From contig JAVCDC010000065.1 in NCBI GenBank assembly GCA_030765135.1, positions 1 to 51,620 on the forward strand: a stretch of 51,620 nt of DNA, in the 5' to 3' direction. The notes beneath the pieces were generated by a model. That model was not told the DNA's origin. It saw nothing but the letters and a program-made list of their open reading frames with translations, and did no database searches. Positions 15,941-50,421 of the stretch are shown piece after piece. Made by a program: the position numbers and the translations under genes. Position 1 is the first letter of the stretch. Every line of letters begins with the position of its first letter. This DNA comes from Candidatus Tritonobacter lacicola (GTDB taxonomy: Bacteria; Auribacterota; Tritonobacteria; Tritonobacterales; Tritonobacteraceae).

Positions 15941-18229
15941 CTAATGCATCCTGATCGCAGTCATGCCGACTGTGTCATTGCCGGACGGGATTATCCAGAG
16001 GTCCCGCGCAAGCGCTGACGGGTTCCGCGCATCCGCGTCCCAGTACGTCCAGTCACCCGCCGCCGGAGCGTTGTAGCAGTAGAGGTTGTCGTCACCACCG
16101 TCACTTTTCATGACCGCGAGGCCTCCTGCTTCCGCGGCAGCAACGGCGACCGCGTCGTTACCGGATGGTATCACCCAGAGGTCTCTCGCCAGCGGTGTCT
16201 GGTTCCGCGCGAGGCAGTCCCAGTACGTCCGGTCGCCTGCGGCCAGGTTGTTATACGCGTAGAGGTTCACGTCACCCGCTCCCTCCTCCTTCAAAACAGC
16301 CAGCCCCTTCACGCCGCCTCCGATGTCGAGGCCGGCCATGCATGCTGCGTCGTTGCCGGCCGGCATGACCCAGAGGTCACGGGCAAGGGGCGAGGGGTTC
16401 CGGGAAAAGGCGTCCCAGTACAGCCAGTCGCCCGCTTCGGGGGCGTTGTAGTAGTACAGGTTCAAGTCCCCGCCGCCGTCATTCTTCAGGATGGCCAGGT
16501 CCAGCCGCCCGTCGGCGTTTATATCCTCGACGGCCGCGATACCTATCGCGTCGTTGCCGGCGGGGATGACCCACAGGTCCCGCGCAAGCGCCGACGGGTT
16601 TCGCGCAGAGCAGTCCCAGTACATCCAGTCGCCGCCCACCAGGCTGTCGTAGAGGTAGAGGTTTACGTCACCCGCTCCCTCCTCCTTCAGCACGAGGAGG
16701 CTCTCCGGGAACGTCCCCCCTATCGCCGTCATGCCGATGGCGTCGTTGCCCGCGGGGATCACCCACAGGTCCCGCGCGTACGCCGAGGGGTTCCTCGCCA
16801 GCGCGTCCCAGTACAGCCGGTCTCCACTGACCAGGCTGTTATAGTAGTAGAGGTTGATGTCGCCCTCCGCGCTGCTCTTAAGCACCGCCAGCTTAGGCCC
16901 GCCCGTGGGTGTAATCGTAGGCGTCAGCGTTATAGTCGGTGTCCGCGTGACCGTTTGTGTGGGTGTGGCGGTCGGCGTACAGGTAGACGTCGGCGTGATA
17001 GTGGGCGGTATTGTCGGCGTGTTCGTTGCCGTCACGGTGGGAGTATTCGTCGGCGGTGAGGTCGGCGTCGACGTGGGCGTACCAGTTGCCGTTGGAGTCT
17101 GTGTGCTGGTTGCAGTAAAAGTCGAAGTGGCGGTTGCTGTCGGCGTGAGTGTTATCGTCGGTGTCAGCATGACCGTGGGCGTGGAAGTCGGCACCGTTGT
17201 CTGTGACGGCGTTGCCGTCACGGTCGGCGTGTGCGTCGAGGCCATTGTATGGGTCGGAGTCGGCGACGCGGCAGTCGAGCCGGCCCATCCGGCCAGCCTC
17301 GCCCACATCCACCACACCGCCCGACCCTTCAGCACACAGTTTATCCGCGCCTTGTTGCCGGGACCGTCACAATGAGCGCATTCGGCACAGCCGTCATAAC
17401 CGGTGACGCCGTTTCCCGTAGTTAACTGTTCGAGCTCAGAACCGGCATTGGCATCGATCCACTCCTCTCCCCAGTTTCCGCCGGTATAGTCCAGGTCGTC
17501 ATACATCGCCAGATCCCAGAAGTAAAACCCATCCGGATCGTATGCTTCGATGTCCGCAAAATCGAACAGTATACGATTATTAGTGTTACAGTGCTGCCTG
17601 ATCAACTGGTTGTTGTAATGAACGTGACCATCGCCGTTCGCCTGGGGGTCGTCGTGGAGATTCTCGCCCTGGCCCTCGGCGTGGCCGGTCATGAACACGA
17701 ACTTCACGGGATGTTCCGCGGCCCGTGGCTTGGTGCCGCCCTCGCCGTACTCCGATACAAGTATCTCCATGTTGTCCACGTAGCGCTGGGCGTTGTGCAT
17801 GTTGATGCTGCACCAGGACCACATGATGACGTTAACGTGTAAGTTCGCGGGGTTATCCAGAAGATTTCTCGTTGCCGTCACCCAGGGTGTAACGCCGTTG
17901 CCGTCGATGTAGTCCCCCTGGCTCAGGTCGTCGATGCCGGGTATGCCGTTGTCATCCAGATCGAGGCCGGACGAGCCGTTATCAGACCACTCGTACTTCG
18001 TCCCGAATGAGGGGAAAGTATCGAGGGCGTTCATGCCCGTGATCAGCTGGCTCCCGTGAGATGTGTGCTGATAGGCGACGTGAAGATCGCTTTTCGCCTG
18101 GCTGATCCATGAGTCGGGGATCTGCGATAGTTCCGTGCAAGTGTGGTCGATTATTATCGGCTGGGCAAAAACGGCTGGAGTGACTAAAAACAGACCGCCG
18201 GCAATAAGAACTGTCGATTTCAACTTCAT
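15941..18229 (-). CDS. Secreted multidomain protein with five-repeat C-terminal module
   Basis: A 762-residue exported protein with a clear signal peptide (MKLKSTVLIAGGLFLVTPAV, then FAQ). Residues about 22-317 form a globular domain starting IIIDHTCTELSQIPDSWI, with the motif HVAYQHTSHGSQLITGMNAL; similar openings occur in secreted proteins of other bacteria, but I know no function for it. Late in this domain are Cys-rich CAECAHC and NKARINCVLKGRAVWWMWARLAGW. Residues about 318-446 are a Thr/Pro linker of TPT units, likely extended. Residues 447-762 are five repeats of about 60-67 residues (see next entry), shared with the two giant proteins at 37.4-48.6 kb. The ATG has only a weak ribosome binding site; the small lipoprotein at 18330-18578 lies just upstream. 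Confidence 0.85.
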   Translation of the reverse strand: MKLKSTVLIAGGLFLVTPAVFAQPIIIDHTCTELSQIPDSWISQAKSDLHVAYQHTSHGSQLITGMNALDTFPSFGTKYEWSDNGSSGLDLDDNGIPGIDDLSQGDYIDGNGVTPWVTATRNLLDNPANLHVNVIMWSWCSINMHNAQRYVDNMEILVSEYGEGGTKPRAAEHPVKFVFMTGHAEGQGENLHDDPQANGDGHVHYNNQLIRQHCNTNNRILFDFADIEAYDPDGFYFWDLAMYDDLDYTGGNWGEEWIDANAGSELEQLTTGNGVTGYDGCAECAHCDGPGNKARINCVLKGRAVWWMWARLAGWAGSTAASPTPTHTMASTHTPTVTATPSQTTVPTSTPTVMLTPTITLTPTATATSTFTATSTQTPTATGTPTSTPTSPPTNTPTVTATNTPTIPPTITPTSTCTPTATPTQTVTRTPTITLTPTITPTGGPKLAVLKSSAEGDINLYYYNSLVSGDRLYWDALARNPSAYARDLWVIPAGNDAIGMTAIGGTFPESLLVLKEEGAGDVNLYLYDSLVGGDWMYWDCSARNPSALARDLWVIPAGNDAIGIAAVEDINADGRLDLAILKNDGGGDLNLYYYNAPEAGDWLYWDAFSRNPSPLARDLWVMPAGNDAACMAGLDIGGGVKGLAVLKEEGAGDVNLYAYNNLAAGDRTYWDCLARNQTPLARDLWVIPSGNDAVAVAAAEAGGLAVMKSDGGDDNLYCYNAPAAGDWTYWDADARNPSALARDLWIIPSGNDTVGMTAIRMH
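15944..16891 (-). repeat. Five-repeat C-terminal module, copy A (316 aa)
   Basis: Five repeats of 64, 67, 65, 61 and 59 residues. Consensus: L-A-[VI]-[LM]-K-x-x-G-x-G-D-[VL]-N-L-Y-x-Y-N, then GDWxYWD, then ARNPSxLARDLWxIPxGNDAxGM. Repeat 2 ends EDINADGRLD, a DxNxDG calcium-loop-like motif as in FG-GAP/VCBS repeats. The same order of linkers recurs in copies B and C. Repeat 5 ends the protein. Probably a small beta-propeller; that is inference. Confidence 0.92.
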
Positions 18230-26708: not shown

Positions 26709-26710
26709 CC

Positions 26711-26896: not shown

Positions 26897-26956
26897 AGCC
26901 TCTGGGAAAAATCCGTATTTCTGACCCAAATCAAACATCGTTGAGGTATCGAAGTT

Positions 26957-27507: not shown

Positions 27508-27741
27508 GCTAAGGGAGGGAGGAATGACTAAGTAATGACAAATCCTGCACCTGTCCACCGTCTTGTCCGCCGAAGCACGAAGTGCGAAGGCGGAAGCTCA
27601 TAGAGCGAAGGCGGCAATTCTGCAACCCGTATCCTGTATCCCATATCCCGCATCATCCCAATTCCCTTCTTCCAAATCATTTCTCCTTTTCTCTTTAGCC
27701 TGATTTGATACACTATCTATCCAAGTACAGTAAGGTGATTA

Positions 27742-31095: not shown

Positions 31096-31151
31096 TATGG
31101 CAGATTGAGAATTGTATTGCCAATTTGCGGAGCGGATGATACCTTGTCATC

Positions 31152-35300: not shown

Positions 35301-36880
35301 GGCTGGAATCTCCGGAAGTGCTCCAACTGCTTGAAAAACTTCGTAATGCCGGAACTCCTCTGGGTGAATACGTTAATGGAAGGTTCTATCGTGGAATCTT
35401 GACCGGCTTAAACGAAGCCTTTGTCGTGGACCGTGCCACCCGCGACCGCCTGATTGCAGAAGACCCCAAATCGGAAGAAATCCTGAAGCCTTTTCTCCGG
35501 GGGCGGGATGTAAAACGCTGGAGAGTGGAACCGAAGGATCTGTGGTTAATTTTTACACGCCGCGGAATTGATATCAAAAGATATCCGGCCATCAAAAAGC
35601 ATCTGGAGAAATACCGCAAAAAATTGAAACCCAGACCTAACAATTGGCCGTCTGACAAGCAATGGTCGGGACGCAAACCGGGCTCATATAAGTGGTATGA
35701 GATACAGGATAATATTGCTTATTATAAGGAGTTTGAAGAACAGCAAATCGTTTGGGGCAATCTCGCAACTCACCCAAAATTTTCATTTGCCAATGCAGGG
35801 TATTACCTTAGTGCGCCGGCGGTTTTAATGGTTACAGATAACCCCTATGTTCTTGGCATTCTTAATTCGAAACTTACACACTATGTTGTTTCTCAATCTG
35901 CGGCCACAAGGCAAGGTGGATATGTTGAATTCAAGCCCATGTATATTTCGAATCTGAGTATCCCGGATCCTTCGCAAGATATTAAAGCTAAGATTTTTAA
36001 TTTGGTTATTAATGCCGAAAAGGCTACTGGCAATCAACTTGTTGAAATTGAAAATAGAATCGATAAAGAAGTGTATAGGTTATTTAATCTAACAGAAGAA
36101 GAAATCACCCTCATCGAATCGTCTATTGGACCCTCTAGAACGAAAGCGGAAATAAAATCGGATCTTCGTTCGATATTGCTGCCGGCTCTGAAGGAGATGT
36201 CACCATATTTCAACCTGGAGACAGTATCTGTCCGGTTAAAGGGAGTTGGAATAGAGGCTCCATCTACAACTGTAACAACCTATCTCTCTGAATTCATATC
36301 AGAGGGCTTATTATATGACGCCGGGAGGGGATGGTATTCCCGCATCGCGAAACCATTCGCTCTCGATACTGCTCCTGTAAAAAAGATCATCACCAAAATA
36401 AAAAAAGCCTTCCCTCTCCTTGATTTCTCCTGCTGGTCAACAGAACAGATCAATCCGTATATGCATCATCTTTTAGGCAAGTCCGTAACATTCGTTTATA
36501 CGGACCGTGATCTTATGCCGGCTGTTTATGAGGAACTTCAGGGTTGGCAAGGATATAAAGTCTATCTGGATCCCTCATCGGATGAAGCGAAGAAAAATTT
36601 TCGGGTTGAGGAGAAGACGATCGTCATCCGTCCGGAGAGCAAAGACTCCCCGGGAGGGGAAGGCCATACGGCATCCATTGAGAAATTGCTCACGGATTTG
36701 TCTATTGAGGTCGAGAAACTGCCGCTTATGAGCCTCGGTGAATTCCAGGATATGGCCTGGCGCGCCGTAACCTCTGCCCGAATCTCCATGGGAACTTTAC
36801 TCCGCTATGCTCGTAGGAGGTACCGGGAACCATCAAATATGTTTGGCGAAAACTGGTGCAGGCAGAGGGTCAAACCCTAA
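32312..36880 (+). CDS. Type IIG/PglX-like adenine methyltransferase fused to an AbiEi-like domain
   Basis: A 1522-residue protein. The N-terminal about 500 residues include an R-type region (YLFFVLELKKDHYTRTHL, a possible nuclease strand). Then SFYTPRVVVDFM, methyltransferase motif I DPACGSGAFPMGIL near 575 and motif IV LGNPPYV near 852 mark an N6-adenine methyltransferase of the Eco57I/PglX class, followed by a target-recognition-like region to about 1265. The last about 240 residues are different: a winged-helix-like start (APSTTVTTYLSEFISEGLL, GRGWYSR), CWSTEQINPYMHHLLG, and SIEKLLTDLSIEVEKLPLM with LRYARRR. That is the pattern of DUF6577/AbiEi-type antitoxin proteins as I know them. The TAATG junction makes the ATG at 32312 more likely than the TTG at 32276. 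It probably marks, and may cut, DNA for the helicase system. Confidence 0.88.
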   Translation: MNIQPLKAQIKEALQTFRSGSARENALKLLNVLGYRSDRTLDLDGSPEAFLQQFDRDSDRPFRKDKALFDRWKSIDFLFQLTDTEVRNAGMQGDLPFDSSTGYDGKTYSSYLFFVLELKKDHYTRTHLSQITREINRLFTMPVMVFFKQEGTLTLAVINRRISKRDPDKDVLKKVTLIKDIRIEDPHRAHIEILYDLSFPAICAKAQPSNFIELHAAWQKALDASELNKLFYKELALWYYWAATRVRFPVPPYVEDEEAYQKESLIRLVTRLIFIWFMREKELVPADILQSGKLTSILKDFDPQSENDSSFYKAILQNLFFSTLDTTMKERDFRRQRSFQGKNKDYMEHKVFRHEKLFREGVQLKDLFGEIPFLNGGLFECLDHFDEEEKVIRVDGFSDIAKHQPVVPNHVFFLPETDAKELGVDLNQVFDTRNKRYKVRGLIDLLENYKFTVVENTPIEEEIALDPELLGLAFENLLASYNPETGTTARKQTGSFYTPRVVVDFMVDESLIAYLKAKLLGPDTSSSKAGGGKGKSSKIEKRLRNLLSYRETLVELTDKETDQLIEAIDHCKIVDPACGSGAFPMGILHKLVHILQSIDPGNERWKTKLLDRTPVEIQEDVTRMLEGTSLDYVRKLGLIQNCIYGVDIQPIAIEIAKLRFFISLLVDYRKDPKKPNLGIQPLPNLDYKLMQGDSLIEDFYGISLSPETVEKEEQKLLIDDRLEVKGLIDTLWRKQSEYLNAWRLKDKERLKKEVEGTIIKIFHHEIEIKKKPYFEALKVLKDQSDQVKNLEQKQKYYAAGKAKIDKKFDFDFVAVERELREYTRGYRRRPFFPWHLYFAEVFQDNGGFDIALGNPPYVRQEKIRTLKPALQKQYECFTGTADLYTYFYERSITLLCDGGILTFISSNKFFRSGYGQKLRAYLGKNASLQQVIDFGDAPVFTAIAYPTIIVLGKNTPQINKFFAMTWKPGPPINDFVSIYEKQRFAMDQESLTPAGWRLESPEVLQLLEKLRNAGTPLGEYVNGRFYRGILTGLNEAFVVDRATRDRLIAEDPKSEEILKPFLRGRDVKRWRVEPKDLWLIFTRRGIDIKRYPAIKKHLEKYRKKLKPRPNNWPSDKQWSGRKPGSYKWYEIQDNIAYYKEFEEQQIVWGNLATHPKFSFANAGYYLSAPAVLMVTDNPYVLGILNSKLTHYVVSQSAATRQGGYVEFKPMYISNLSIPDPSQDIKAKIFNLVINAEKATGNQLVEIENRIDKEVYRLFNLTEEEITLIESSIGPSRTKAEIKSDLRSILLPALKEMSPYFNLETVSVRLKGVGIEAPSTTVTTYLSEFISEGLLYDAGRGWYSRIAKPFALDTAPVKKIITKIKKAFPLLDFSCWSTEQINPYMHHLLGKSVTFVYTDRDLMPAVYEELQGWQGYKVYLDPSSDEAKKNFRVEEKTIVIRPESKDSPGGEGHTASIEKLLTDLSIEVEKLPLMSLGEFQDMAWRAVTSARISMGTLLRYARRRYREPSNMFGENWCRQRVKP

Positions 36881-37427: not shown

Positions 37428-40400
37428 TTATTCCGTACTGATCGCCGTCATACCAACCGCGTCATTCCCTATAGGAATGACCCACAAGTCGCGAGCAAGG
37501 GCAGACGGGTTCCTGGCATAGCAATCCCAGTATATCCAGTCGCCGGGAACAAGGGCGTTGTAGTAGTACAGGTTCACGTCCCCCGCACCCTCCTTCTTAA
37601 GGATCGCCAGGTCCTCCTTGCCGTCGTTGTCGGCGTCTATGGCGGTCAGCCCTATCGCGTCGTTGCCCGCCGGCATCAGCCACATGTCCCGCGCGAGAGC
37701 AGAGGGATTCCGTGCAAAACAGTCCCAGTATATCCAGTCGCCCTCCACCAGGTTGTTGTACACGTAAAGATTCACATCCCCAGCGCCCTCCTTCTTCAGG
37801 ATGGCAAGGCCCCTCCCTGCGCCAACGCCTATGTCCGTCAGGCCGATGGCATCGTTTCCGGCAGGCATCAGCCACATGTCCCTGGCCATGGCGGACGGGT
37901 TCCGACTGAAGCAGTCCCAGTAAAGCCAGTCGCCGGGAACAAGGGCATTGTAGTAGTACAGGTTCACGTCCCCCGCTCCCTCCTTCTTCAGGATAGCAAG
38001 ATCATCCAGCCCGTCGGCGTTCATGTCATCCACTCTAGCGATGCCTATCGCGTCGTTGCCCGTCGGCATTATCCACAGGTCGCGCGCCACGGAGGACGGG
38101 TTCCGCGCATCGCAATCCCAGTAGCTCCAGTCTCCACCTACGATGCTGTTGTATAGGTAGAGGTTCACGTCGCCGGCTCCTTCCTTCTTCATAACGTAGA
38201 GCCTGTCCGGGCTGCCACCCGTTGCTGTCATACCTATCGCGTCGTTACCTGTCGGTATGATCCACATGTCCCTGGCCATGGCGGACGGGTTCCGGCTTAA
38301 GCAGTCCCAGTACAACCAGTCGCCCGGCACCAGGCCGTTGTAATAGTAGAGGTTCACGTCGCCAGCGCCTTCCTTCTTCATGATCGCCAGCTTGTTCTCC
38401 AGATGGGTCGGCCGCCCTGAAAAGACATACAGCATGTTGTTATCTGAACCAACATAGATCCTACCGTCTGAGCCTATTGCTGGGGAAGATTCAACATCTC
38501 CTCCAGTCCCGTATGTCCAGGCGAGCGCGCCGTCGGAGCCGAGTGCGTACACGTTGTTGTCATAAGACCCAATATAAAGCCGCCCGTCGGAGCCGATGGC
38601 GGGGGAGGAGGACACCCGGTCCCCGGTCCCGTAGCTCCAGGCGATCGCGCCATCGGAGCCGAGTGCGTACACGTTGTTGTCACATGATCCCACGCAGAGC
38701 CTCCCGCCGGAGCCCACGGCGGGGGAGGAGGTCACCAAGTACCCGGTCCCGTAGCTCCACGTGAGCGCGCCATCGGAGCCGAGTGCGTACACGTTGTTAT
38801 CCCAGGACCCCACGTAGATTTTCTCCTCGGAGCCCACGGCGGGGGAGGAGGTTACCCAGTCCCCGGTCCCGTAGCTCCAGGCGATCGCGCCGTCGGAGTT
38901 GAGTGCGTACACGTTGTTATCCCAGGAGCCCACGTAGACCCTCCCGCTGGCGCCTATGGCGGGGGAGGAGGTTACCCAGCCCCCGGTCCCGTAGTTCCAC
39001 GCGCGCGTGCCGTCGGAGTTGAGTGCGTACACGTTGTCGTTCCAGGCCCCCGCATAGACCCTCCCGTCCGGTCCTATCGCGGGGGAGGATTGCACGCGGT
39101 ATCCAATGCTGCACGTCCACGCGAGCGTGCCATCGGAGTTGAGGGCGCACACATTGCCGTCATTATCCCCCACATAAATTCGCCCATCAGGCCCCACCGC
39201 AGCGGAAGAGTCCACCAAGGCGCCGGTCCCGTAATCCCACGCGAGCGTGCCATCGGAGTTGAGGGCGCATATAGCGCGGGGGGAGTAAACGTCGTTATCC
39301 GGCACGTAGATCATGCCCCCGTGGCCTATTGCTGGGGAAGAGGACACAGCGTCCCCGGTGATGTAGCTCCACGCAAGTGCCGCCGTCGAGGGTCCGGGGT
39401 ACGAGCTCAACCCCGTGCGCATCGGGTCGTGGCGGAACATTGGCCAGGGAGGCGGCGTTGGCGTGATGGTGGGCGTCCGTGTAATCGTAGGCGTCAAGGT
39501 GATTGTGGGGGTCCGGGTAACCGTAGGTGTGCTTGTAGGCGTGGCCGTCAGGAGCCCTGTTGGCGTCCGGGTCGGCGTTGACGTCCGCGTGGGTGTTGCC
39601 GTAGGCGTCCCTGTGGGGGTCCCCGTCGCCGTAGGCGGCGACTCCTGGAACGCGAAGAGCCTGTCGTACGACCCAACGAAGACTCCCCCCTCACCGCCTA
39701 TGGCGGGAGACGACCACACCCGCTCCCCTACCAGGTAGCTCCACTGGAGGCTGCCCGACGAATCGAGGGCGTATATATTCCCGTCGCCACTGTAGGAGCC
39801 CGCGTACACCCTCCCCGCGGCGTCCAGAGCTGGGGACGAGGGAACGCTGCCGGCGGTCAAGTAGCTCCACGCAAAAGAGCCCGCCGAGGTGAGCGCGTAG
39901 ATATTGTTATCGCCGGAGCCCACGTACACATTGCCGTTGGTGCCCACAGCCGGGGAGGAGTCCACCCAATCACCGGCGGCGTAGGTCCACACAAGAACCC
40001 CCGCCTGCGTGAGGGCGTAGAGGTTGTTGTCCTGTGACCCGACATAGAGACGTCCGCCGGGGCCCAGGGCGGGCGAGGAGCGCACGTTCCCCCCCGTCGC
40101 GTAGCTCCACAGGAGCGAGCCGGATGACGTGAGGGAATAGACGTTGCCGTCCGGGTCACCGATAAAGACGCCTCCTCCGGGCCCAAGGGCGGGGGCAGAG
40201 TACTTATCATACCAGAAGGTAACATAGCTCCACGAGAGGGCGCCGACCGAGGTGAGGGCGTAGAGAGCGCCGCCTGAGGAGCCCGCGTAGACCTCGCCCC
40301 CGTAGCCCACGGTGAGGGCGGTCCGCGAGATGCCCCCTCCCGTCGCGTAGCTCCAGGAGAGGGTCCCGTCCGATTCCAACGAGTAGATATTTTTGTCCCA

Positions 40401-40808
40401 GGAGCCGGCGAGGACCCTCCCATCAGGGCCGACAACCGGCGAAGCGTACACGCCCGCCCCCGTCGCGTAGCTCCAGAAAAGCGAGCCGTACGAGTTCAGG
40501 GCGTACACGTTGTTGTCGCCCGACGAGGCCCCCGCGTAGACCCGTCCCTCGTTATCCACCACGGGCGAGGACTCGACCCCTGCACCCGTTACGTAGCTCC
40601 ACAGGAAGACGCCCAGGGTGGGCCCCTCGTACAGGCTCCTTCCAGTGTGCGATAGGTCGTTTCTGAACATCGGCCATGGGGCATAGGGAGTGGGTGTAGC
40701 TGTGGGTTGGGCCCGGGCAGCCGCGGCAAAGAGCACTACGAGAACCACCGCTGTAGCGACAATGCTTGTACGTCCCATGAGAAATCCACGTCGCCTTCCC
40801 TCGCGCAT
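37428..40808 (-). CDS. Secreted double eight-bladed propeller protein with five-repeat module
   Basis: A 1126-residue exported protein. An Arg-rich start (MREGRRRGFLMGRTS) and a long hydrophobic core ending AARAQ form the signal peptide; GGAGG lies 9 nt before the ATG at 40808. After PTATPTPYA, residues about 40-386 are an eight-bladed PQQ/BamB-like propeller introduced by WPMFRNDLSHTGRS, with blades of 40 residues of the type SSPAVGxxGxVYVGSxDNNxYAL. Residues about 390-453 are a Thr/Pro linker, residues about 455-803 a second eight-bladed propeller introduced by WPMFRHDPMRTGLS, and residues 807-1126 the five-repeat module. Such propellers usually bind ligands or proteins; I see no enzyme domain. 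The N- and C-terminal blocks match those of the giant protein upstream, so the two probably arose by duplication. Confidence 0.88.
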   Translation of the reverse strand: MREGRRRGFLMGRTSIVATAVVLVVLFAAAARAQPTATPTPYAPWPMFRNDLSHTGRSLYEGPTLGVFLWSYVTGAGVESSPVVDNEGRVYAGASSGDNNVYALNSYGSLFWSYATGAGVYASPVVGPDGRVLAGSWDKNIYSLESDGTLSWSYATGGGISRTALTVGYGGEVYAGSSGGALYALTSVGALSWSYVTFWYDKYSAPALGPGGGVFIGDPDGNVYSLTSSGSLLWSYATGGNVRSSPALGPGGRLYVGSQDNNLYALTQAGVLVWTYAAGDWVDSSPAVGTNGNVYVGSGDNNIYALTSAGSFAWSYLTAGSVPSSPALDAAGRVYAGSYSGDGNIYALDSSGSLQWSYLVGERVWSSPAIGGEGGVFVGSYDRLFAFQESPPTATGTPTGTPTATPTRTSTPTRTPTGLLTATPTSTPTVTRTPTITLTPTITRTPTITPTPPPWPMFRHDPMRTGLSSYPGPSTAALAWSYITGDAVSSSPAIGHGGMIYVPDNDVYSPRAICALNSDGTLAWDYGTGALVDSSAAVGPDGRIYVGDNDGNVCALNSDGTLAWTCSIGYRVQSSPAIGPDGRVYAGAWNDNVYALNSDGTRAWNYGTGGWVTSSPAIGASGRVYVGSWDNNVYALNSDGAIAWSYGTGDWVTSSPAVGSEEKIYVGSWDNNVYALGSDGALTWSYGTGYLVTSSPAVGSGGRLCVGSCDNNVYALGSDGAIAWSYGTGDRVSSSPAIGSDGRLYIGSYDNNVYALGSDGALAWTYGTGGDVESSPAIGSDGRIYVGSDNNMLYVFSGRPTHLENKLAIMKKEGAGDVNLYYYNGLVPGDWLYWDCLSRNPSAMARDMWIIPTGNDAIGMTATGGSPDRLYVMKKEGAGDVNLYLYNSIVGGDWSYWDCDARNPSSVARDLWIMPTGNDAIGIARVDDMNADGLDDLAILKKEGAGDVNLYYYNALVPGDWLYWDCFSRNPSAMARDMWLMPAGNDAIGLTDIGVGAGRGLAILKKEGAGDVNLYVYNNLVEGDWIYWDCFARNPSALARDMWLMPAGNDAIGLTAIDADNDGKEDLAILKKEGAGDVNLYYYNALVPGDWIYWDCYARNPSALARDLWVIPIGNDAVGMTAISTE
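37431..38390 (-). repeat. Five-repeat C-terminal module, copy B (320 aa)
   Basis: Five repeats of 63, 67, 64, 66 and 60 residues, starting LAIMKKEGAGDVNLYYYN. Repeat 1 ends GGSPDR, repeat 2 DDMNADGLDD, repeat 3 DIGVGAGRG, repeat 4 DADNDGKED, and repeat 5 the C-terminus. These inter-repeat signatures are in the same order as in copies A and C. Confidence 0.93.
38400..40690 (-). repeat. Two PQQ-like propeller arrays of about 120 bp blades
   Basis: Sixteen blades of about 40 codons. Between roughly 38500 and 39260 the blade units are very similar even at the DNA level (GTCCCGTAGCTCCAGGCGA and GAGTGCGTACACGTTGTTGT recur each about 120 nt), and the same words occur in the third propeller of the next gene at 42040-42640. 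Confidence 0.9.
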
Positions 40809-40998
40809 AAATCGCACCCTCCACCCGCGGTCCGCTTTTACCATGAAATCTCGATTCCCCGGGCCGTCACGTCACGTAGCAGTCACCCCGGCGCAAAGCA
40901 CCACGGCCCGACAGAAAACATGGCCCCGCGCTCTTGGCCGCACCCGTTTAGGGGATTTCGCCCCGCTGCCGCTAGGTATCTGCCCTTACAGGGCCCCC

Positions 40999-43900
40999 TT
41001 ATCTTTTCCACCATACCCTGATTGCGGTTATCCCCACCGCGTCGTTCCCCGTGGGGATTATCCAGAGGTCCTGTGCAAGCGTCGACGGGTTGCGCGCCAG
41101 AGCATCCCAGTAGCCCCAGTCGCCGGTCAACAGCGCGTTGTAGTAGTACAGGTTCACGTCCCCTGCGCCTTCCTTCTTCAAGACCGAGAGGTCATCCACC
41201 CCGTCCCCGTCCATATCGATGGCCGTGATACCTATGGCATCGTTCCCTGACGGTATTATCCATAGATCTTTTGCCAGAGGGGACGGGTTCCTCGATACGG
41301 CGTCCCAGTACGACCAGTCTCCTTCTACAAGGTTCCTGTAGACGTATAGGTTCACGTCCCCCTCCCCTTCTTTCTTCAGGATCGCGAGGCCCCTCTCTCC
41401 GTCTCCCTTCCCTATGTCCGTCAGGCCCACCGCGTCGTTCCCCGTTGGGATCAACCACAGGTCGCGAGCCAGGGGTGTCGGGTTCCTCGATACGGCGTCC
41501 CAGTAGCCCCAGTCGCCGGTCAACAGCGCGTTGTAGTAGTACAGGTTCACGTCCCCTCTCCCCTCCTTCTTCAGGATGGCGAGGTCCTTCAGCCCGTCGG
41601 CGTTCATGTCCTCCACGCTGGCGATGCCTATCGCGTCGTTACCCGCCGGCATTATCCAGAGGTCGCGAGCCACGGCGGACGGGTTCCTCGCCAGGGCGTC
41701 CCAGTACGACCAGTCGCTGTCCTCAAGGCCTTCGTAGAGGTACAGGTTCACGTCGCCCGCCCCCTCCTTCTTCATCACGTAGAGCCTGTCCGGGCTGCCA
41801 CCCGGCACAGACGCCATCCCCACGGCGTCGTTCCCCGTCGGGATAATCCACAGGTCACGCGCCATAGGCGAGGGGTTTCTCGCCAGCGCGTTCCAGTAGG
41901 TCCGGTCACCCGCGACGAGGTCGTTGTAGAAGTAGAGGTTGACGTCGCCTCTCCCATCCTTTTTCAGGATGGCGAGCTTCCACGCTACCCCGTCGAGACA
42001 GTACAGCATGTGGTCCTCGGAACCGACGTAGATCCTCCCGTCAGAGCCTATGGCGGGAGAAGAGGACACGCTGCCTCCGGTCCCGTAGCTCCACGCGAGC
42101 GCGCCGTCGGAGTCGAGTGCGTACACGTTGTTGTCCCAAGACCCCACGTAGACCCTCCCCCCGGCGCCCACGGCGGGGGAGGAGTCGTACACAATGTCTC
42201 CCGTGCCGTACGTCCAGGAGAGCGCGCCGTCGGAGTTGAGTGCGTACACGTTGTTGTCCCCGGACCCGATGTAGAGCCTCCCGCCGGTGCCCACGGCGGG
42301 GGAAGAGGAGACCCAGGTTCCGGTCTCGTACGTCCAGGCGAGCGCGCCGTCGGCGGCGATGGCGCACACGTTGTTGTCCCACGACCCCACATAGATCCTC
42401 CCGTCGGAACCTATGGCGGGGGAAGAGGTCACACAGGAGCCGGTCCCGTAGCTCCAGGCGAGCGCGCCGTCGGAGTTGAGTGCGTACACGTTGTTGTCCC
42501 AGGAACCGACGTAGACCCTCTTATCAGACCCGATAGCGGGGGAGGAGGAGACAGAGACTCCGGTCATGTACGTCCACGCGAGCGTGCCGTCGGAGTCCAG
42601 AGCGTACACACCGGAGTCCCATGACCCTACATAGAGCCTCCCGTCGGAGCCCACGGCGGGGGAAGAGTCCACCCAGAATCCGGTAACGTAGCTCCACGCG
42701 AGCGTGCCGGCGGAGTCTATGGCGTACACGTTGTCGTCCCAGGACCCCATGTAGACCATCCCGTCGGCGCCTATGGCGGCGGAAGACCATACGAACGATC
42801 CAGAACCGCTTATGTAACTCCACGCCAGCGCGCCGTCGGAGTTCACGGCGCACATCGTGCTGGGGGAATAGGCGTCATTATCCGGCACGTAGACTCTCCC
42901 CCCGGTCCCTATTGCGGGAGAGGAGGAGACGCCGCCGCCCGTGACGTAGCTCCACGCCATCGCCACCGTCGAGGGGCCCCGGTACTCGCTCCGCCCCATA
43001 CGCATCTGGTTATTATGGAACATCGGCCAGGGGGCGTACGGTGTGGCCGTCTGTAAAGGCGTCGGAGTCTCTGTCTGCGTGACCGTGGCAGTCGCCGAAG
43101 GTGTTGGCGTCTGAGGCATCGTCGGTATTTCCGTGGGTGTGCGTGTCGGCGGCGGAGTCGTCACCGTTGGCGTGTGAGTGGGCGTATTGGTCGGCGTCTC
43201 CGTGGGCGTATCGGTTACAGTCGGCGTCGGAGTGGGCCCTGTCGGAGTGTGAGTGGGCGTGGCGGTGATAGAGGGCGTACTGGTAATTACCGGCGTGGAG
43301 ACCCCAATCGCGTACAGCATGTCGTCATTCGACCCCACGTAGAGCCTTCCGTCGGAGCCTATGGCGGGAGAGGAGGACACACTGCCTCCGGTCATATAGG
43401 TCCATAAGAGAGAGCCCGTGGAGTTGAGGGCGTAACCACCGTTGTCTTGAGAGCCCACGTACACATGCCCGCTGGAGTCTATGGCGGGGGAAGACTGAGT
43501 TACATAATTCCCTGTTACATAGCTCCATGAAAGTGAACCCGTGGAGTTGAGCGTGTAAATAGTACTGTCCCAGGACCCGACATGGACTCTCCCTACAGTA
43601 CCTATGGCGGGGGATGAATATATATTGCCTCCGGTCATATAGGTCCACGTGAGGGAGCCGTTGGAGTTGAAAGCGTAAACACCATGGTCTTGAGAGCCCA
43701 CGTATATTTGCCCCTCAGAGCTTATGGCGGGGGAAGAGGATACATAGCCCCCTGTCATGTAGGTCCACGAGAGTGAGCCCGTGGAGTTGAGGGCGTACAC
43801 GTTGTAGTCAAGCGACCCGACATAGACTTTGCCCCCGGGGCCCAGGGCTGGAGAGGAATCTATGCTGTCTCCGGTCGTGTAGAACCACCTGATAGTGCCG

Positions 43901-46900
43901 TCGGAATCGACGGCGTACACGTTGTGGTCAAAGGAACCCACATAGATCACACCGTCAGGGCCTATCGCCGGTGAGGAACGGCCGCCGGTACCAGTGTAGG
44001 ACCACGAGAGGATGCAGGACCACGAGAGGGAGCCCGTGGAGTTCAGGGCATAGAGATTGTTGTCGAATAATTCTATATAAATTTTCCCATCCGGGCCTAT
44101 CGCGGGGGAGGAATATACCGTGCCTCCCCCTGCCATGTAGGACCATGAGAGGGAGCCCGTGGAATTGAGGGCGTAGACCCCCCCGATTCCCCAGGAAGAA
44201 CCCAGATAGACCCTTCCATCGGGGCCAACGGCGGGGGAGGAAGTCACATTGTCACCGATCACATAAGTCCAGGCGAGTGTGGCTGTCGCAGGGCCGGCAT
44301 ACTGGCTTTGACCCGTGCGCTGTGCGTCGTGATGGAACATCGGCCAGAAGGCGTACAGCGTGGGAGTGGGGGTGGGCGTCGGGGTGATCGTCGGTGTTGG
44401 CGTGGGCGTCATGGTGGGGACGGAGGAGCTGTTCCGCGGGTTGCACGCGACCTCAGAGAAGTCGTTGGCGTTATCGTCAGTGTCGAGCCCGTCAGTGGTC
44501 CTCTTCCACGCCTTCCCGCTCCCCAGCGTTCCCAGGCGCGTCCCCTCGTAGCGTGAAGAGGTCTCCCAGCCGACCGTGTCCACGACCTCGGCGGAGGCGT
44601 TCAGGAGCTGCGCGAAGCTGTTCGCGCCGTTGTCGGTGATGCCGATGTTCGTATCCACGTCGGGGACGACGCTCCCCGTGGGGTTCGTGTCCGATATCAG
44701 GTAGAAGCCGTACCCGTAGATGACGTCGGAGGAGGTGAAGATGTAGTCCCCCGAGTATACGTTGAGTTCCCAGTTCTCCAGGTTTACAGGTGTGCTCGAG
44801 TTGTTGTAGAGCTCCACGTACTCGCCGAGGCCGCCGCTTCCCGTGCTGAAGGGGCCCACCTGGTTGACGACGACGCCCGGCGTGGGCGTGGGATCCTGGA
44901 AACAGTAGAGCCTACTATCCCACGACCCTACATAGAGACTCCCGTCAGAGCTTAAGGATGGGGAATAGACGTCCTCTCCCGTCAGGTACGTCCAGGAGAG
45001 TGAACCCGTGGAGGTGAGGGCGTAGAGCCTGGCGTTGGAGGACCCCACGTAGATACGCCCTGAAGAGTCCACGAGGGGAGAACTTGATGTCCAGGCGGTC
45101 ACATAGCTCCACGTGAGTGAGCCCGAAGAATTGAGCGCATAGGTTCCGGAGTCCTCGGAAGCCACATAGATGCGCCCGTCTGAGCCTACTGCGGGCGAAG
45201 AGGATACATCCCCGCCCGTTACATAGCTCCACTCGAGCGAGCCCGCGGAGGTCAGGGCGTATATCCTGTTATCCAGAGCGCCCACATAGACCCTCTCTCC
45301 GGGGTCCTCCAGGGTGGGGGAAGACCAGACGCCGCTGAATTGACCCGGCCCGGTGGCGTACGTCCACAAGAAGGAGCCCGTAGAAGTGAACGCGTACAGG
45401 TTGTTGTCCTGGGACCCCACGTAAACCCTCTCCCCATAGCCCAGGGCTGGGGAGGAAGCGACTGGATCGCCCGTCATATAGGTCCATGAGAGGGAGCCAT
45501 CGGAATTGAATGCGTAACACCTGTTATCACTCGACCCCATATATATGGTACCGTCAGACCCTATGGCGGGGGAGGAACCCACGTTGTCCCCCGTCAGGTA
45601 GGTCCACGAGAAGGAGCCGTCAGAATTCACGCAATAGAGATTATCGTCATTCGACCCAACGAAGACCTTGTCCCCGGCGCCGAGGGCGGGGGAAGAAGTG
45701 ACGTAATGCCCTGTGGCGTAACTCCATGCAAGCGATCCCGCAGGCGTAATGCCGTAGATGCGATTGTCCCTGGACCCCACGTAAACGCGCCCGTCGGACC
45801 CTGTGGCGGGGGATGATGTCACGCTGGACCCGGCCACATAGGTCCAGGCGAGCGTCGCCGTCGCGGGCCCTTCGTAAGGGCTCCTCCCCGTGTGCCTCAG
45901 GTCGTGCCTGAACATCGGCCAGGGCGTATCCGCGAGCTCACTTTTTTGTCCCAGCGCGGCCCCTTCCTGTGTCCATGGGTGGGGCGCCGAGAAGGTTCCC
46001 GGCGGTGCGCTTGCGGGTGTCTCGACCGGCGGGGGCGAGGACGTCTTTACGTCAATGGTGAGCTTGACAGCGGTGACGCCCCCAGTGAACAGATCGACGT
46101 CCTGCTCGAAGATACTCACTGTGCCAGTCTTCTCTCCGCCCCCCGGCACCTGCGAGATGAAACCCGCCCAGCCCTCGCCCATCTCTTGCTCTAATAAGTT
46201 TGAATTCCCCGACCCTGGCCAGAGGTCTTCTATCTTCGTGCACTTGTAGTTCCCCCCGGTATCATCAAAGTATGTTGCCAAATCGAGGCCAACAAGGAAT
46301 TTGGCCGGGCCCTTGCACCTGTTCCAGATTGTCACGACGACTGTCTTGCGGTCCTGCGAGACGAAGCTGAAGACCTTGTACTGGTTGGGCATTAAAAGCT
46401 TGATATTGGGAAGCAGTTCGGGTGTACCACACTCCCCGTAGCTAAAGACGAAGAGGCCGAGGTCGGCCTTGAAAGTCCCGTGGTAGAAAGCTTCAGGGGC
46501 ATCGTCGTACACCTTGTAGTAGTCGGAATAATCATCGAAGCTCCGTTTGTTCGGCGGTTCCCATTCCCATTTGGCCCAGAGCTTCCAGCCGAACACGAAG
46601 TTGAGCTGGGGCCACGGGTCCCTTTGTAGGACAATTCCCTGCGTGAGACCCTGGAAGACTCCGGGGAAGAGGTACCGTGCGACCTCTGGGTAATCTGCTC
46701 CTGAGGCAGGGGGGTAACCTGTCAGGTGGTGCTGCCCCCACACGTCGATGTAGGGGATGAGAAAATCAACTATCCCCTCTACCATGAGGATCTTCTTCGG
46801 GCCCCAGTCCGGGTCCCACCCGCCAGGGGGGCGCCACACCTCGTCGTTGAGCCTCTTGAGGTACCCTGCAAGGCCTGGCCCCAATGTTGTCGCGGGCGTG

Positions 46901-48591
46901 TTGGGGATGTTCGTACCCGGCACGAAGGTCCCGTCGCCGTGGCCGTGGCCGTTCTCGTAGCAGAAGAGCTGGGCGTGCCCGGCGAGGACGGTGTCGAGCC
47001 AGACGCCGTCGATGCCGTGGTATGGCGTGTATTTACTACCATCCTTATCCGGGTCGAAGAGTATCTTTTGGTCATTGATGACGGTGTCCCTGAGCTCATT
47101 GCTGCAGACGCACTGGGTATAGAATCTTCCGGGGACTCCGCAGAATTCATAGTTTTCCTCTTGTACCGTAAGTTCCCACTTCATCTTTCCCCAGATCCAA
47201 TACCAATTCTTGACGGACTGGCCCGGATGTTGCGACAGCCATTCACCCTTGGTGTCGGCTTCGTAGGGATTGATGAAGAAGATAATGTGGTCTTTTTTAT
47301 CATGGCAGCCATCTATTTCTGGGGGGGGAGTCGGCCCATGTCTCCCTCCCATCCCTCTGGCTAAAGCGTCTGCAGGTGAGAGATTATCTCCACTATGCCC
47401 CTCGTCGAGGTTGAAGTGAGGCCAATAATTCTTATAGTCTACACCACCGCTGTAAAGAGTAGCGCCCCACTCCGCCCGGCCTTCCCACCAAGTCTCGTCT
47501 AAAGCGATATTGTTCCCATCGACATCCCACAATTTCATCTTGTGGGTGTAGTACTCGGCATAATTATCGATATAGCCGTCCCAGGAGATGCTGTGTGCTA
47601 CCTTGATCCAGTTGGGATACTCCCTGGTCCACCCCGCCTCGTTCGCCATCCACCATTTATAGCGGTCGGCGCCCCAGTACCATCCGGTCCCCCTTTTGAG
47701 TCCAACCTCCATTTCGTACGATTTCCACGTCTTTCCCGGCTCGATGAAGGGATAGTGGGTCACGGCCATCTGCTGGCCAAAGCGGAAGGACTTCGTGATC
47801 GCCTCGCTGTCGCATGCGGCAAGGTAGAGACCCTGATAGGTATTCCCGTACCATATCCACTGCCACGCAGCGGGCATGGGATATTTCACCTCGTTATTGC
47901 CCTTGAAATCGAAATTCTTAATCCGCTGCAAGAACAGGTTATACCGTTTCCCGCGCTCCATTGGGCTGATGAAATAAGAGGTCCGAAAGAGAAATTCGTC
48001 GGACCAGATCTCCTTGATTCCCCTCAGTTGGGGGTAGGTGACAGAGACAACCGTCTCTCCCGTAGTGGTGGGGGTATTGTTGGTGACCTCTATCCACCAC
48101 CGGGTGAATTCGCTCCCGTCGAATATCCTCACGTATTGCTTGACGGTGCAATTGCCGCCTCCGACGGGAACGGCGTTCTGAACCATCTTCAGCGTGATGC
48201 CATCCATATTGGTACTTGTGTTCCACGTGTCGAGCGGGTAATTCCACCCTTGGACGGATGTGGTGTGATTGTCTATGTGCGACGTGTTCCATTTGACGGG
48301 CTCGTCGTGGTATCGGAGTGAATAGGAGCCCGGTTTATATTCAGGAGAATTATCATCAAGCCATCCAATGAAGTTCGTGCCCGTCTCGGCGTTTTTAAGA
48401 GCGATTACCCCCCCAGCCTCCGGCAACCCCAACTTGGAAAACTGTATCTCGACCTTGGAGTTGCGGAGGATGAGGTAGTCTGGTGAGGAATCATCGAAGA
48501 CGCAGTCGCCCGGGAAGGCGGGGGGAGGGGCGAGAAGAAGGAAGAGAGAGAGACATACACTGGAAAGTGCGCACCACAGGGACTTCTTCAT
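40999..48591 (-). CDS. Giant secreted protein: glycoside-hydrolase-like domain, three propellers, LTD, five-repeat module
   Basis: 2530 residues from the ATG at 48591, with AAGGAG 6 nt upstream. The signal peptide is MKKSLWCALSSVCLSLFLLL. Residues about 25-870 look like a DUF6259-type glycoside hydrolase: a beta-rich N-part, RYKWWMANEAGWTREYPNW, then TIM-barrel-like GIDGVWLDTVLAG (possible catalytic Asp), ENGHGHGDGTF and ILMVEGIVDFLIPYIDVW (possible acid Glu). About 887-1231 is an eight-bladed PQQ-like propeller (WPMFRHDLRHTGRS); about 1238-1387 a lamin-tail domain (GEYVELYNNSSTPVNLENWE); then Thr/Pro linkers and two more eight-bladed propellers (about 1413-1761 and 1853-2202); residues 2206-2530 are the five-repeat module. 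It may degrade a polysaccharide at or outside the cell surface. Substrate unknown. Confidence 0.85.
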   Translation of the reverse strand: MKKSLWCALSSVCLSLFLLLAPPPAFPGDCVFDDSSPDYLILRNSKVEIQFSKLGLPEAGGVIALKNAETGTNFIGWLDDNSPEYKPGSYSLRYHDEPVKWNTSHIDNHTTSVQGWNYPLDTWNTSTNMDGITLKMVQNAVPVGGGNCTVKQYVRIFDGSEFTRWWIEVTNNTPTTTGETVVSVTYPQLRGIKEIWSDEFLFRTSYFISPMERGKRYNLFLQRIKNFDFKGNNEVKYPMPAAWQWIWYGNTYQGLYLAACDSEAITKSFRFGQQMAVTHYPFIEPGKTWKSYEMEVGLKRGTGWYWGADRYKWWMANEAGWTREYPNWIKVAHSISWDGYIDNYAEYYTHKMKLWDVDGNNIALDETWWEGRAEWGATLYSGGVDYKNYWPHFNLDEGHSGDNLSPADALARGMGGRHGPTPPPEIDGCHDKKDHIIFFINPYEADTKGEWLSQHPGQSVKNWYWIWGKMKWELTVQEENYEFCGVPGRFYTQCVCSNELRDTVINDQKILFDPDKDGSKYTPYHGIDGVWLDTVLAGHAQLFCYENGHGHGDGTFVPGTNIPNTPATTLGPGLAGYLKRLNDEVWRPPGGWDPDWGPKKILMVEGIVDFLIPYIDVWGQHHLTGYPPASGADYPEVARYLFPGVFQGLTQGIVLQRDPWPQLNFVFGWKLWAKWEWEPPNKRSFDDYSDYYKVYDDAPEAFYHGTFKADLGLFVFSYGECGTPELLPNIKLLMPNQYKVFSFVSQDRKTVVVTIWNRCKGPAKFLVGLDLATYFDDTGGNYKCTKIEDLWPGSGNSNLLEQEMGEGWAGFISQVPGGGEKTGTVSIFEQDVDLFTGGVTAVKLTIDVKTSSPPPVETPASAPPGTFSAPHPWTQEGAALGQKSELADTPWPMFRHDLRHTGRSPYEGPATATLAWTYVAGSSVTSSPATGSDGRVYVGSRDNRIYGITPAGSLAWSYATGHYVTSSPALGAGDKVFVGSNDDNLYCVNSDGSFSWTYLTGDNVGSSPAIGSDGTIYMGSSDNRCYAFNSDGSLSWTYMTGDPVASSPALGYGERVYVGSQDNNLYAFTSTGSFLWTYATGPGQFSGVWSSPTLEDPGERVYVGALDNRIYALTSAGSLEWSYVTGGDVSSSPAVGSDGRIYVASEDSGTYALNSSGSLTWSYVTAWTSSSPLVDSSGRIYVGSSNARLYALTSTGSLSWTYLTGEDVYSPSLSSDGSLYVGSWDSRLYCFQDPTPTPGVVVNQVGPFSTGSGGLGEYVELYNNSSTPVNLENWELNVYSGDYIFTSSDVIYGYGFYLISDTNPTGSVVPDVDTNIGITDNGANSFAQLLNASAEVVDTVGWETSSRYEGTRLGTLGSGKAWKRTTDGLDTDDNANDFSEVACNPRNSSSVPTMTPTPTPTITPTPTPTPTLYAFWPMFHHDAQRTGQSQYAGPATATLAWTYVIGDNVTSSPAVGPDGRVYLGSSWGIGGVYALNSTGSLSWSYMAGGGTVYSSPAIGPDGKIYIELFDNNLYALNSTGSLSWSCILSWSYTGTGGRSSPAIGPDGVIYVGSFDHNVYAVDSDGTIRWFYTTGDSIDSSPALGPGGKVYVGSLDYNVYALNSTGSLSWTYMTGGYVSSSPAISSEGQIYVGSQDHGVYAFNSNGSLTWTYMTGGNIYSSPAIGTVGRVHVGSWDSTIYTLNSTGSLSWSYVTGNYVTQSSPAIDSSGHVYVGSQDNGGYALNSTGSLLWTYMTGGSVSSSPAIGSDGRLYVGSNDDMLYAIGVSTPVITSTPSITATPTHTPTGPTPTPTVTDTPTETPTNTPTHTPTVTTPPPTRTPTEIPTMPQTPTPSATATVTQTETPTPLQTATPYAPWPMFHNNQMRMGRSEYRGPSTVAMAWSYVTGGGVSSSPAIGTGGRVYVPDNDAYSPSTMCAVNSDGALAWSYISGSGSFVWSSAAIGADGMVYMGSWDDNVYAIDSAGTLAWSYVTGFWVDSSPAVGSDGRLYVGSWDSGVYALDSDGTLAWTYMTGVSVSSSPAIGSDKRVYVGSWDNNVYALNSDGALAWSYGTGSCVTSSPAIGSDGRIYVGSWDNNVCAIAADGALAWTYETGTWVSSSPAVGTGGRLYIGSGDNNVYALNSDGALSWTYGTGDIVYDSSPAVGAGGRVYVGSWDNNVYALDSDGALAWSYGTGGSVSSSPAIGSDGRIYVGSEDHMLYCLDGVAWKLAILKKDGRGDVNLYFYNDLVAGDRTYWNALARNPSPMARDLWIIPTGNDAVGMASVPGGSPDRLYVMKKEGAGDVNLYLYEGLEDSDWSYWDALARNPSAVARDLWIMPAGNDAIGIASVEDMNADGLKDLAILKKEGRGDVNLYYYNALLTGDWGYWDAVSRNPTPLARDLWLIPTGNDAVGLTDIGKGDGERGLAILKKEGEGDVNLYVYRNLVEGDWSYWDAVSRNPSPLAKDLWIIPSGNDAIGITAIDMDGDGVDDLSVLKKEGAGDVNLYYYNALLTGDWGYWDALARNPSTLAQDLWIIPTGNDAVGITAIRVWWKR
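41002..41976 (-). repeat. Five-repeat C-terminal module, copy C (325 aa)
   Basis: Five repeats of 64, 67, 65, 66 and 63 residues, starting LAILKKDGRGDVNLYFYN. Signatures between repeats: GGSPDR, EDMNADGLKD, DIGKGDGERG and DMDGDGVDD, then VWWKR at the C-terminus. Closest to copy B. Confidence 0.93.
41985..45930 (-). repeat. Three PQQ-like propeller arrays with linkers
   Basis: Three sets of eight blades (about 45930-44900, 44355-43310 and 43035-41985), each preceded by a WPMF(R/H)(H/N) entry strand. Between sets 1 and 2 lie the lamin-tail domain and a short Thr/Pro linker; between sets 2 and 3 a Thr/Pro linker of about 88 residues. Set 3 is closest to the second propeller of the neighbouring gene. 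Confidence 0.88.
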
Positions 48592-49053
48592 CGCCATCTC
48601 CTTACACATGAGAATAACCCTTCCAGATGTGTCTTGGCAGGGTGACATTACCTATCTATCCCCGGCACACTGCCGCATCAAAGATAAGCCAGCTACCGAT
48701 TCCCTCTACGAGAGATCTTCGGCTCCCCTGAGCCGCCTGCGTGCGGGCCGGCACACCGGTCTTCGTGTCCCGATTATGCTCCCCTCGGCACAAGTCGTCG
48801 GTGTCTGTGACGTGATTTTGGTGATGGTTCCGCTCATGGGCTCTTCGAATAACACAGCCTTTCGATTACGCTTTGAAGCGTGCGCTTCCAATCCACAAGA
48901 TATACGTCTATACGGATAGATAGATGTATAGCAAGGGATAACTATTTCAATTTGAACGCAGAAGGAAGTATCTGTCAACCCTATAATAAACCCTATATAA
49001 TACTTAGGTAAAATACGGGGTAAGAAGGGCTGAAAGGGGGGTGATTCTACTGC
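48592..49053 (-). promoter_or_regulatory. Leader of the giant gene with a possible sigma-70 promoter at 48950-48978
   Basis: No gene is evident in these 462 nt. On the minus strand TTGACA (48978-48973) is followed after 17 nt by TCAAAT (48955-48950, four of six to consensus). Transcription from there would give a leader of about 350 nt before the ATG at 48591. The surrounding DNA is AT-rich. A short frame at 48706-48978 lacks coding character. Confidence 0.35.
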
Positions 49054-50421
49054 TTACAGTGTCTGAAGGTAGGTGGAGAGGTTGATTCCTCTCTTGGTGA
49101 TATCCAGCTTTCTGCGTATGTTATCGCGGTGCTTTTCCACGGTTTTCTTGGAAATGTGCAGTATTCTGGCTATATCCTTGGTGCTCAAGCCTATCTTGAT
49201 CATGTCACAGACCTCGATCTCCCGTGGCGTCAGCCTCAAACGCGGCTCGGACAGCTTGCTGCCGAAGGATGTGGCCAGCTCCTCGAGGTTGCGCTTCAGG
49301 AGGCTCAGATACTCCTGCTTGAACTGACCTTTTTCATTTTCGATCTTGCGCAAAACAGGAATCACCAGGTTCTCGATATTGGCTACTATATCGTCCTTGA
49401 ACTTCTTCTTTTCAACTCCGAGCTGTTCCAGTATCTCCCTGAGGGCGACGTTCTTCTCCTCGAGGGCCTCCTTCTGCTCTTTGAGCCGCTCCTCTGAATC
49501 CCTCAGTTCCTTCTCGATTTTCTTGCGCCCGGCAATCTCAAGGAGAAGGTCCTCGTTGACGCGTTTGAGCTCCCCCGTGCGTTTTTCCACCACCTCCTCG
49601 AGCCGGGACCGGTACTGTTTCAACTCATCCTCCGCCCTCTTGCGCTCGGTGATGTCGGTATCCGTGCCCCTATATCCGAGAAGCTTTCCATTCTCGTCGA
49701 GGATGGGAACTCCGCTTGTTTCGAGCACGACCTCAGTGCCATTCTTGTGGACGTTCCGATTGATAAATTCGCGGAAGGATTTTTTGAGGGCAAACACTTC
49801 AAACGATGCCTTCTTTATGTCCTCTCTCTCCTCGGGATGGAGCAGGTCATAGAAGTGCTTTCTGCCCACAATTTCTTCAGGCGTATAGCCCAGGATCTTT
49901 TCCACGGCCGGGCTCGCATAGGTATAAAGCCCATCAGCATCCACTTCCCAGATCCACTCCCTGGCATTCGCCGCCACCTGCGTGAAACGCTTCTCCGACT
50001 CGCGCAGCGCCTCCAGCACTTTTTTACGTTCCGACATGTCCCGGAGCATGCCTATCATGCCGATGGCTTTCCCTTCCTCATTTACCAAGATCGTGTTGCG
50101 CATCAGGGTGGGAAATACCGTGCCGTCCCGGCGTGCATGCAGAACTTCGCCGCTGAACTCTCCCGTCTCTTTGATCTGACGGTTCGCTTTCTCAACTGCA
50201 GAAATCTGTTCCGGAGTGTGAAAGATGGAAAGGTGCTTCCCCACCAACTCATCCGGCGAATAGCCGTGTATGGCCGCGAAGGCTTTATTCACGAAGAGAA
50301 GGTTGCCGTCGAGGTCGCTGACAGCTATCCCCTCCGTGCTCTGCTCCATGACGAAGGCGAGAGTGCGACACATCTCCTGCTCTCGTTCGATGTCGACCAT
50401 GTCTCGAGAGGATGGCTCCAC
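49054..50421 (-). CDS. PAS-PAS-LuxR regulator
   Basis: 455 residues from a GTG at 50421, preceded by AAGGA at 5 nt. Residues about 18-135 form a PAS domain with PAC tail (ESTEGIAVSDLDGNLLFVN; GEVLHARRDGTVFP; GMLRDMSERKK); about 140-270 form a second PAS (EWIWEVDADGLYTYASPAVE; EIVGRKHFYDLLHPEERED; RGTDTDITERKRAED). About 270-345 is a long coiled coil, and residues about 395-455 a LuxR/GerE helix-turn-helix (LTPREIEVCDMIKIGLSTKD, then IARILHISKKTVEKHRDNIR). No histidine kinase or receiver domain, so ligand or redox sensing probably acts directly on DNA binding. Such one-component proteins are common in Desulfobacterota and candidate phyla. Targets are unknown; the giant secreted gene just downstream is a natural candidate. 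Confidence 0.92.
   Translation of the reverse strand: MEPSSRDMVDIEREQEMCRTLAFVMEQSTEGIAVSDLDGNLLFVNKAFAAIHGYSPDELVGKHLSIFHTPEQISAVEKANRQIKETGEFSGEVLHARRDGTVFPTLMRNTILVNEEGKAIGMIGMLRDMSERKKVLEALRESEKRFTQVAANAREWIWEVDADGLYTYASPAVEKILGYTPEEIVGRKHFYDLLHPEEREDIKKASFEVFALKKSFREFINRNVHKNGTEVVLETSGVPILDENGKLLGYRGTDTDITERKRAEDELKQYRSRLEEVVEKRTGELKRVNEDLLLEIAGRKKIEKELRDSEERLKEQKEALEEKNVALREILEQLGVEKKKFKDDIVANIENLVIPVLRKIENEKGQFKQEYLSLLKRNLEELATSFGSKLSEPRLRLTPREIEVCDMIKIGLSTKDIARILHISKKTVEKHRDNIRRKLDITKRGINLSTYLQTL

Follow-up and report, generated by a model that had tools for sequence, protein, structure and literature searches.

A 2530-residue exported protein of Candidatus Tritonobacter lacicola with a glycoside-hydrolase-like domain, 24 propeller blades and a putative five-bladed C-terminal tag

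The stretch of DNA analysed here (the window; 51,620 nucleotides) from Candidatus Tritonobacter lacicola encodes a protein of 2530 amino acids that is probably a very large secreted protein in which a sugar-cutting enzyme is carried on long propeller spacers. Its C-terminus consists of a five-repeat module that is predicted to fold into a five-bladed propeller and that recurs at the end of many other exported proteins of the same genome. We propose with moderate confidence that the protein is an exported enzyme that is retained at the cell surface or in a matrix: a divergent DUF6259-type hydrolase would sit on a spacer, and the C-terminal five-bladed propeller would act as a shared tag.

Architecture of the protein and its genomic setting

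The frame at 40999-48648 on the minus strand is one gene. It encodes 2549 amino acids from the first ATG, or 2530 if translation starts at the ATG at 48591, in which case the product opens with MKKSLWCALSSVCLSLFLLL. The latter is the likely start, judged from the sequence, and would open a typical signal peptide; it is preceded by the purine-rich stretch GGAGATGGCG, and the alternative in-frame ATG lies at 48648. A chance origin of the frame is excluded by its 7.6 kb without a stop codon and by the paralogues found across the genome. The signal peptide and the hydrolase-like region come first. Propeller 1 is joined to propeller 2 by the lamin-tail domain and a Thr/Pro linker, and propeller 2 to propeller 3 by a long Thr/Pro linker; the five repeats and the stop codon follow:

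48508..48591, minus strand: Sec-type signal peptide, MKKSLWCALSSVCLSLFLLLAPPPAFPG (from the sequence; hydrophobic 14-mer with a mean Kyte-Doolittle value of 2.44)
45979..48507, minus strand: glycoside-hydrolase-like region of ~840 amino acids (hhalign against DUF6259, supersandwich match, GH13 profile match, paralogue)
44896..45852, minus strand: propeller 1, eight PQQ/BamB-type blades (blade HMM; PF13570/PF13360)
44563..44889, minus strand: lamin-tail domain PF00932 (E 4.8e-12, 46.6 bits against a cut-off of 34.3)
43306..44277, minus strand: propeller 2, eight blades (blade HMM)
41992..42957, minus strand: propeller 3, eight blades, with a Thr/Pro linker ahead (blade HMM)
41002..41991, minus strand: five-repeat module at the C-terminus; the predicted fold is a propeller of five blades, each with one helix (repeat HMM; AlphaFold2)

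No lipobox was seen in the signal peptide. A blade HMM built in this work finds 24 blades in an 8+8+8 arrangement, and the Pfam matches are of the BamB/PQQ type (PF13570, E 3.3e-146; PF13360, E 4.5e-94). NCBIfam matches to AfsK and XAC2610 scored under their cut-offs and were set aside. A second HMM finds exactly five C-terminal repeats of 64-67 amino acids each. Thus, the layout proposed in a sequence-only reading of this DNA, i. e. 2530 residues with 24 blades, a lamin-tail domain and a five-repeat end, agrees with the blade HMM, PF00932 and the repeat HMM. Two further copies of the lamin-tail region, 60-70% identical to that in the window, are present elsewhere in the genome (G000:C144:28828-29352 and 32376-32915).

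The window contains two more genes for proteins with the five-repeat module:

37428..40844, minus strand: neighbour of 1138 amino acids with a signal peptide, two eight-bladed propellers (16 blades) and the same five-repeat module (blade HMM, repeat HMM)
15941..18229, minus strand: third module gene, 762 amino acids, the N-terminal ~450 of which have no Pfam match (repeat HMM, Pfam)

The neighbour is located 154 bp downstream of the large gene on the same strand, and it does repeat the propeller and module part of the large protein, as had been noted before (8+8 blades, then the same five repeats). The additional suggestion that it is a special binding partner or spare scaffold is not supported: it is one of about 30 module proteins of the genome, and such propellers are common in the class. 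About 400 bp upstream of the large gene, and again on the same strand, a gene for a PAS-PAS-LuxR regulator is found (49054-50421), possibly a local regulator. The region 25506-36880 is a probable defence island; it encodes an HKD and Snf2 helicase protein (PADLOC C3a139, E 5e-132), a PDC-S01-type ATPase, and a type IIG-like restriction-methylase with a C-terminus that matches AbiEi. A gene with a RecG-C-like HATPase_c_4 domain is located just upstream of this island.

The glycoside-hydrolase-like region

The N-terminal region appears to be composed of a supersandwich (about the first 300 amino acids), a presumed barrel and a C-terminal beta-sandwich, and we consider it a divergent relative of the PF19773 (DUF6259) family. 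No direct Pfam match was obtained for this region, for PF19773 not even at E 10, and the Pfam model has no matches in the host genome. Since the domain does not reach the Pfam gathering score, we call it a relative of DUF6259 rather than a member. When the domain and its paralogue (on contig C108, 48% identity) were aligned by hhalign with five independent DUF6259 proteins, homology was detected with a probability of 97.7 and an E value of 1.9e-12; the alignment extends over 380 columns and spans both carboxylates discussed below. Moreover, a homologue in another genome of the phylum, G038, in which the gene is split over two contigs, matches DUF6259 at 5.2e-16. The window protein differs from the DUF6259 proteins in that 24 PQQ blades and a tail of five blades are fused to the domain.

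Two residues are candidates for the catalytic pair (numbering of the 2530-residue protein):

46993..46995, minus strand: candidate nucleophile Asp D533 (GAC) in the motif DGVWLD, kept in 7/7 sequences that cover the site
46777..46779, minus strand: candidate acid/base Glu E605 (GAG) in the motif LMVEG, kept in 6/6 sequences that cover the site

A profile of the domain and its relatives (8 rows) matches the GH13 structure 5brp at E 1.7e-5, with weaker matches to GH129 and GH36 enzymes; in this alignment, D533 falls on the D of GFRLD and E605 on the E of VGE, the established nucleophile and acid/base of GH13, respectively. The sequence-only reading had made the hydrolase-like domain depend on a TIM barrel and such a carboxylate pair. 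The pair is supported by the conservation of D533 and E605 in all covering relatives and by their alignment with GH13, and of the fold the flanking supersandwich is supported, while the barrel is presumed. AlphaFold2, run with the 8-row alignment, yielded a poor model (pLDDT 39.4, with residues 296-692 below 50), and its Foldseek list was used only with an aligned second look at the first ~300 residues. For this part, the Z scores are 15-17 against the supersandwich of GH36, GH129 and GH38 enzymes and of mutarotases. The supersandwich and the aligned catalytic D/E are thus what the domain has in common with the GH36/GH129/GH38 and GH13 enzymes, at an identity of only about 10%. Direct sequence searches of the PDB with the domain gave nothing useful, and a short-pattern-seeded scan of genome contigs (the query's own genome perhaps left out) found no relatives.

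The barrel, a retaining mechanism and the class of substrate would follow from these homologies. The divergence of the domain, too great for a direct DUF6259 match, and the absence of papers on DUF6259 from our literature search are also consistent with a catalytically dead relative of the glycoside hydrolases that is used for binding. We regard such a loss of activity as unlikely, since the Asp/Glu pair is retained across relatives of about 20-48% identity.

The five-repeat module and its copies in the genome

With an alignment of 23 module paralogues, AlphaFold2 predicts a closed five-fold ring (pLDDT 86.6, pTM 0.87) in which a regular pattern of strands and helix is repeated five times; the other four models scored 70-76, and the fine detail of the prediction has to be read with care. 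Every blade contains a helix and the motif GDWTYWDAxARNPSxxARDLWxIPxGN. These motifs are near-identical and rich in W, Y, D, R and N (R 98%, N 99%, W 99%), and a ring of such motifs suits repeated ligand sites. Loops of the form Dx(D/N)xDGxxD are present between blades 2 and 3 and between blades 4 and 5. Similar loops are known from the FG-GAP propellers of integrin-alpha and from bacterial FG-GAP repeats, and integrin-alpha propellers are among the nearest Foldseek matches. However, FG-GAP propellers have seven blades, whereas the module has five, with a helix and a motif of its own in each of them. The window protein scores 16.9 bits with the Pfam FG-GAP model PF13517 against a cut-off of 26.9; one module paralogue, L039, passes the Pfam FG-GAP cut-off. 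Direct searches with the module found no match to solved structures in the PDB.

The module is widespread in the host genome. We read 24 full copies, each with exactly five repeats (copies cut by contig ends aside), as is expected of a closed ring. The last repeat ends at most 13 residues before the stop codon in 21 of these 24, and a hydrophobic stretch that resembles a signal peptide opens all 20 module proteins whose start is intact. The copies L025, L032 and L036 are internal or followed by extra C-terminal sequence. From 36 matches in total, including pieces at contig ends, we estimate that about 30 genes carry the module. The cargo is diverse: papain-type C1, C10 and S41 peptidases, endonuclease/phosphatase-like and lectin-like domains, as well as SBBP, PQQ and lamin-tail domains; GH38 and another papain-type peptidase are found in copies truncated by contig ends, and L033 consists of a signal peptide and the module alone. 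Contigs C12, C21, C23, C33, C69, C93 and C127 break inside the module, and the true copy number is therefore uncertain. The blades are 0.59 identical within proteins, 0.58 at the same position of different proteins and 0.54 at different positions, with within-protein values of 0.70 and 0.77 in the two adjoining proteins of the window. These figures indicate duplication of the entire five-blade array, followed by some homogenization.

The module might instead be an ordinary carbohydrate-binding, lectin-like domain; it would then direct enzymes to substrates outside the cell, for example environmental polysaccharides, and would not mark proteins for the surface of the cell itself. This is a serious rival, which we judge to be possible though less probable than retention. 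Foldseek places the fucose-binding propeller lectins FleA/AFL and PLL near the top of its matches, part of the cargo is glycosidase-like (GH38, DUF6259-like), and tachylectin-2 is a five-bladed propeller lectin with five GlcNAc/GalNAc sites (PMC6272786). Tachylectin-2 shares the number of blades with the module; five equivalent sites in the module are possible, given its predicted fold. It is not among the top 50 fold matches of the module, an absence that does not exclude likeness. The likeness to AFL and PLL is one of fold; the fold matches are generic propellers at a TM score of ~0.4, and in an aligned second look Z scores of up to 13.6 are spread over unrelated propellers. Moreover, most cargo proteins do not act on glycans (they are peptidases, propellers or endonuclease/phosphatase-like), and the module is almost always at the extreme C-terminus; both argue against a lectin that targets external polysaccharides.

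The C-terminal slot in two sister families

The strongest argument for the C-terminal position as a functional slot comes from a reciprocal exchange. The five-bladed module has no matches in six sister-family genomes of the same class, as compared to the 36 in the host genome. The proteins of these genomes share with the window protein the layout of signal peptide, eight-bladed propeller and Thr/Pro linker, and end in a different beta-rich module of ~120 amino acids that is very diverse in sequence (L076-L085, L086-L109). A profile built from six sister modules detects 5, 44, 42, 28, 32 and 27 copies in the six sister genomes, none in the host genome and none elsewhere among 44 genomes of the phylum. 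This module is C-terminal in 19 of 20 sampled loci, on otherwise diverse, mostly exported proteins. It seems to be the tag, more than the cargo, that differs between the two families. The host genome (94% complete, 1.6% contamination) is the only one that represents its family, and the lineage-wide use of the five-bladed module is read from this one genome.

Outside the family, a short-pattern-seeded scan of genome contigs with the module and one of viral contigs gave no relatives (the query's own genome perhaps left out), and neither did a search of plasmids with the module. Distant relatives of the module occur in other families of the phylum, as single matrixin-like proteases of ~520-530 amino acids with FG-GAP-like tails. 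Five other genomes of the phylum each encode one such metalloprotease with FG-GAP-like C-terminal repeats (L051-L055), and it is plausible that proteins of this kind are the source of the module.

A module that spread purely by gene duplication and fusion would look equally shared. Both modules could then be sticky C-terminal domains that have no common function, much like the PQQ propellers, of which most genomes of the class encode dozens, with large lineage expansions. The assembly breaks and partial copies, which suggest repeat recombination, and the partial homogenization of blades within proteins fit this idea. We nevertheless consider it quite improbable: the strict number of five, the C-terminal place, the strong conservation of motifs in the blades and an exchange between the families that is all-or-none point to selection.

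The retention of exported proteins by a shared tag thus remains our preferred reading. The signal peptide would direct the 2530-residue protein into the Sec pathway. Homology suggests that its N-terminal ~840 amino acids form a supersandwich and a presumed (beta/alpha)8 barrel with D533 as the nucleophile and E605 as the acid/base. The three rigid eight-bladed propellers, the lamin-tail domain and the Thr/Pro linkers may serve as a spacer, and the catalytic domain would stand clear of the surface on the propellers and linkers. The C-terminal five-bladed propeller would hold the large protein at one place together with about 30 further exported proteins, most likely through five equivalent sites that bind a glycan of the surface or a protein partner in the cell's own envelope. 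In the sister family, the same slot would be filled by the unrelated beta-rich module.

The use of one C-terminal module on many exported proteins of one lineage resembles the C-terminal domain of T9SS substrates and the PEP-CTERM/exosortase and GlyGly-CTERM/rhombosortase systems (PMC3237569). These signals are short or a domain of ~75 amino acids, whereas the module is a globular propeller of ~330. The T9SS Por_Secre_tail has no match in the genome, including the 2530-residue protein. A PEP-CTERM-like tail, with its motif, transmembrane helix and basic end, is likewise absent: the large protein ends 6 residues after its last repeat, and module proteins stop directly after the fifth blade. An exosortase is encoded in the same genome (G000:C39:15586-16344, PF09721, E 7e-48). 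It is tempting to speculate that an undescribed route of export or surface attachment recognizes the five-bladed propeller as its signal, and that in each of the two sister families the exported proteome was built around a different C-terminal tag, with the tag swapped whole and the types of cargo alike; we give this bolder idea little credence at present.

If the module is indeed a retention tag, the proteins that this unstudied bacterial lineage exports and retains could be recognized by it in a simple way, and it would represent a new family of five-bladed propellers with binding sites that are directly testable. The two sister families, with different tags and similar cargo, would then amount to a natural experiment. 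The N-terminal domain, in turn, points to an uncharacterized glycoside-hydrolase-like family with named candidate catalytic residues.
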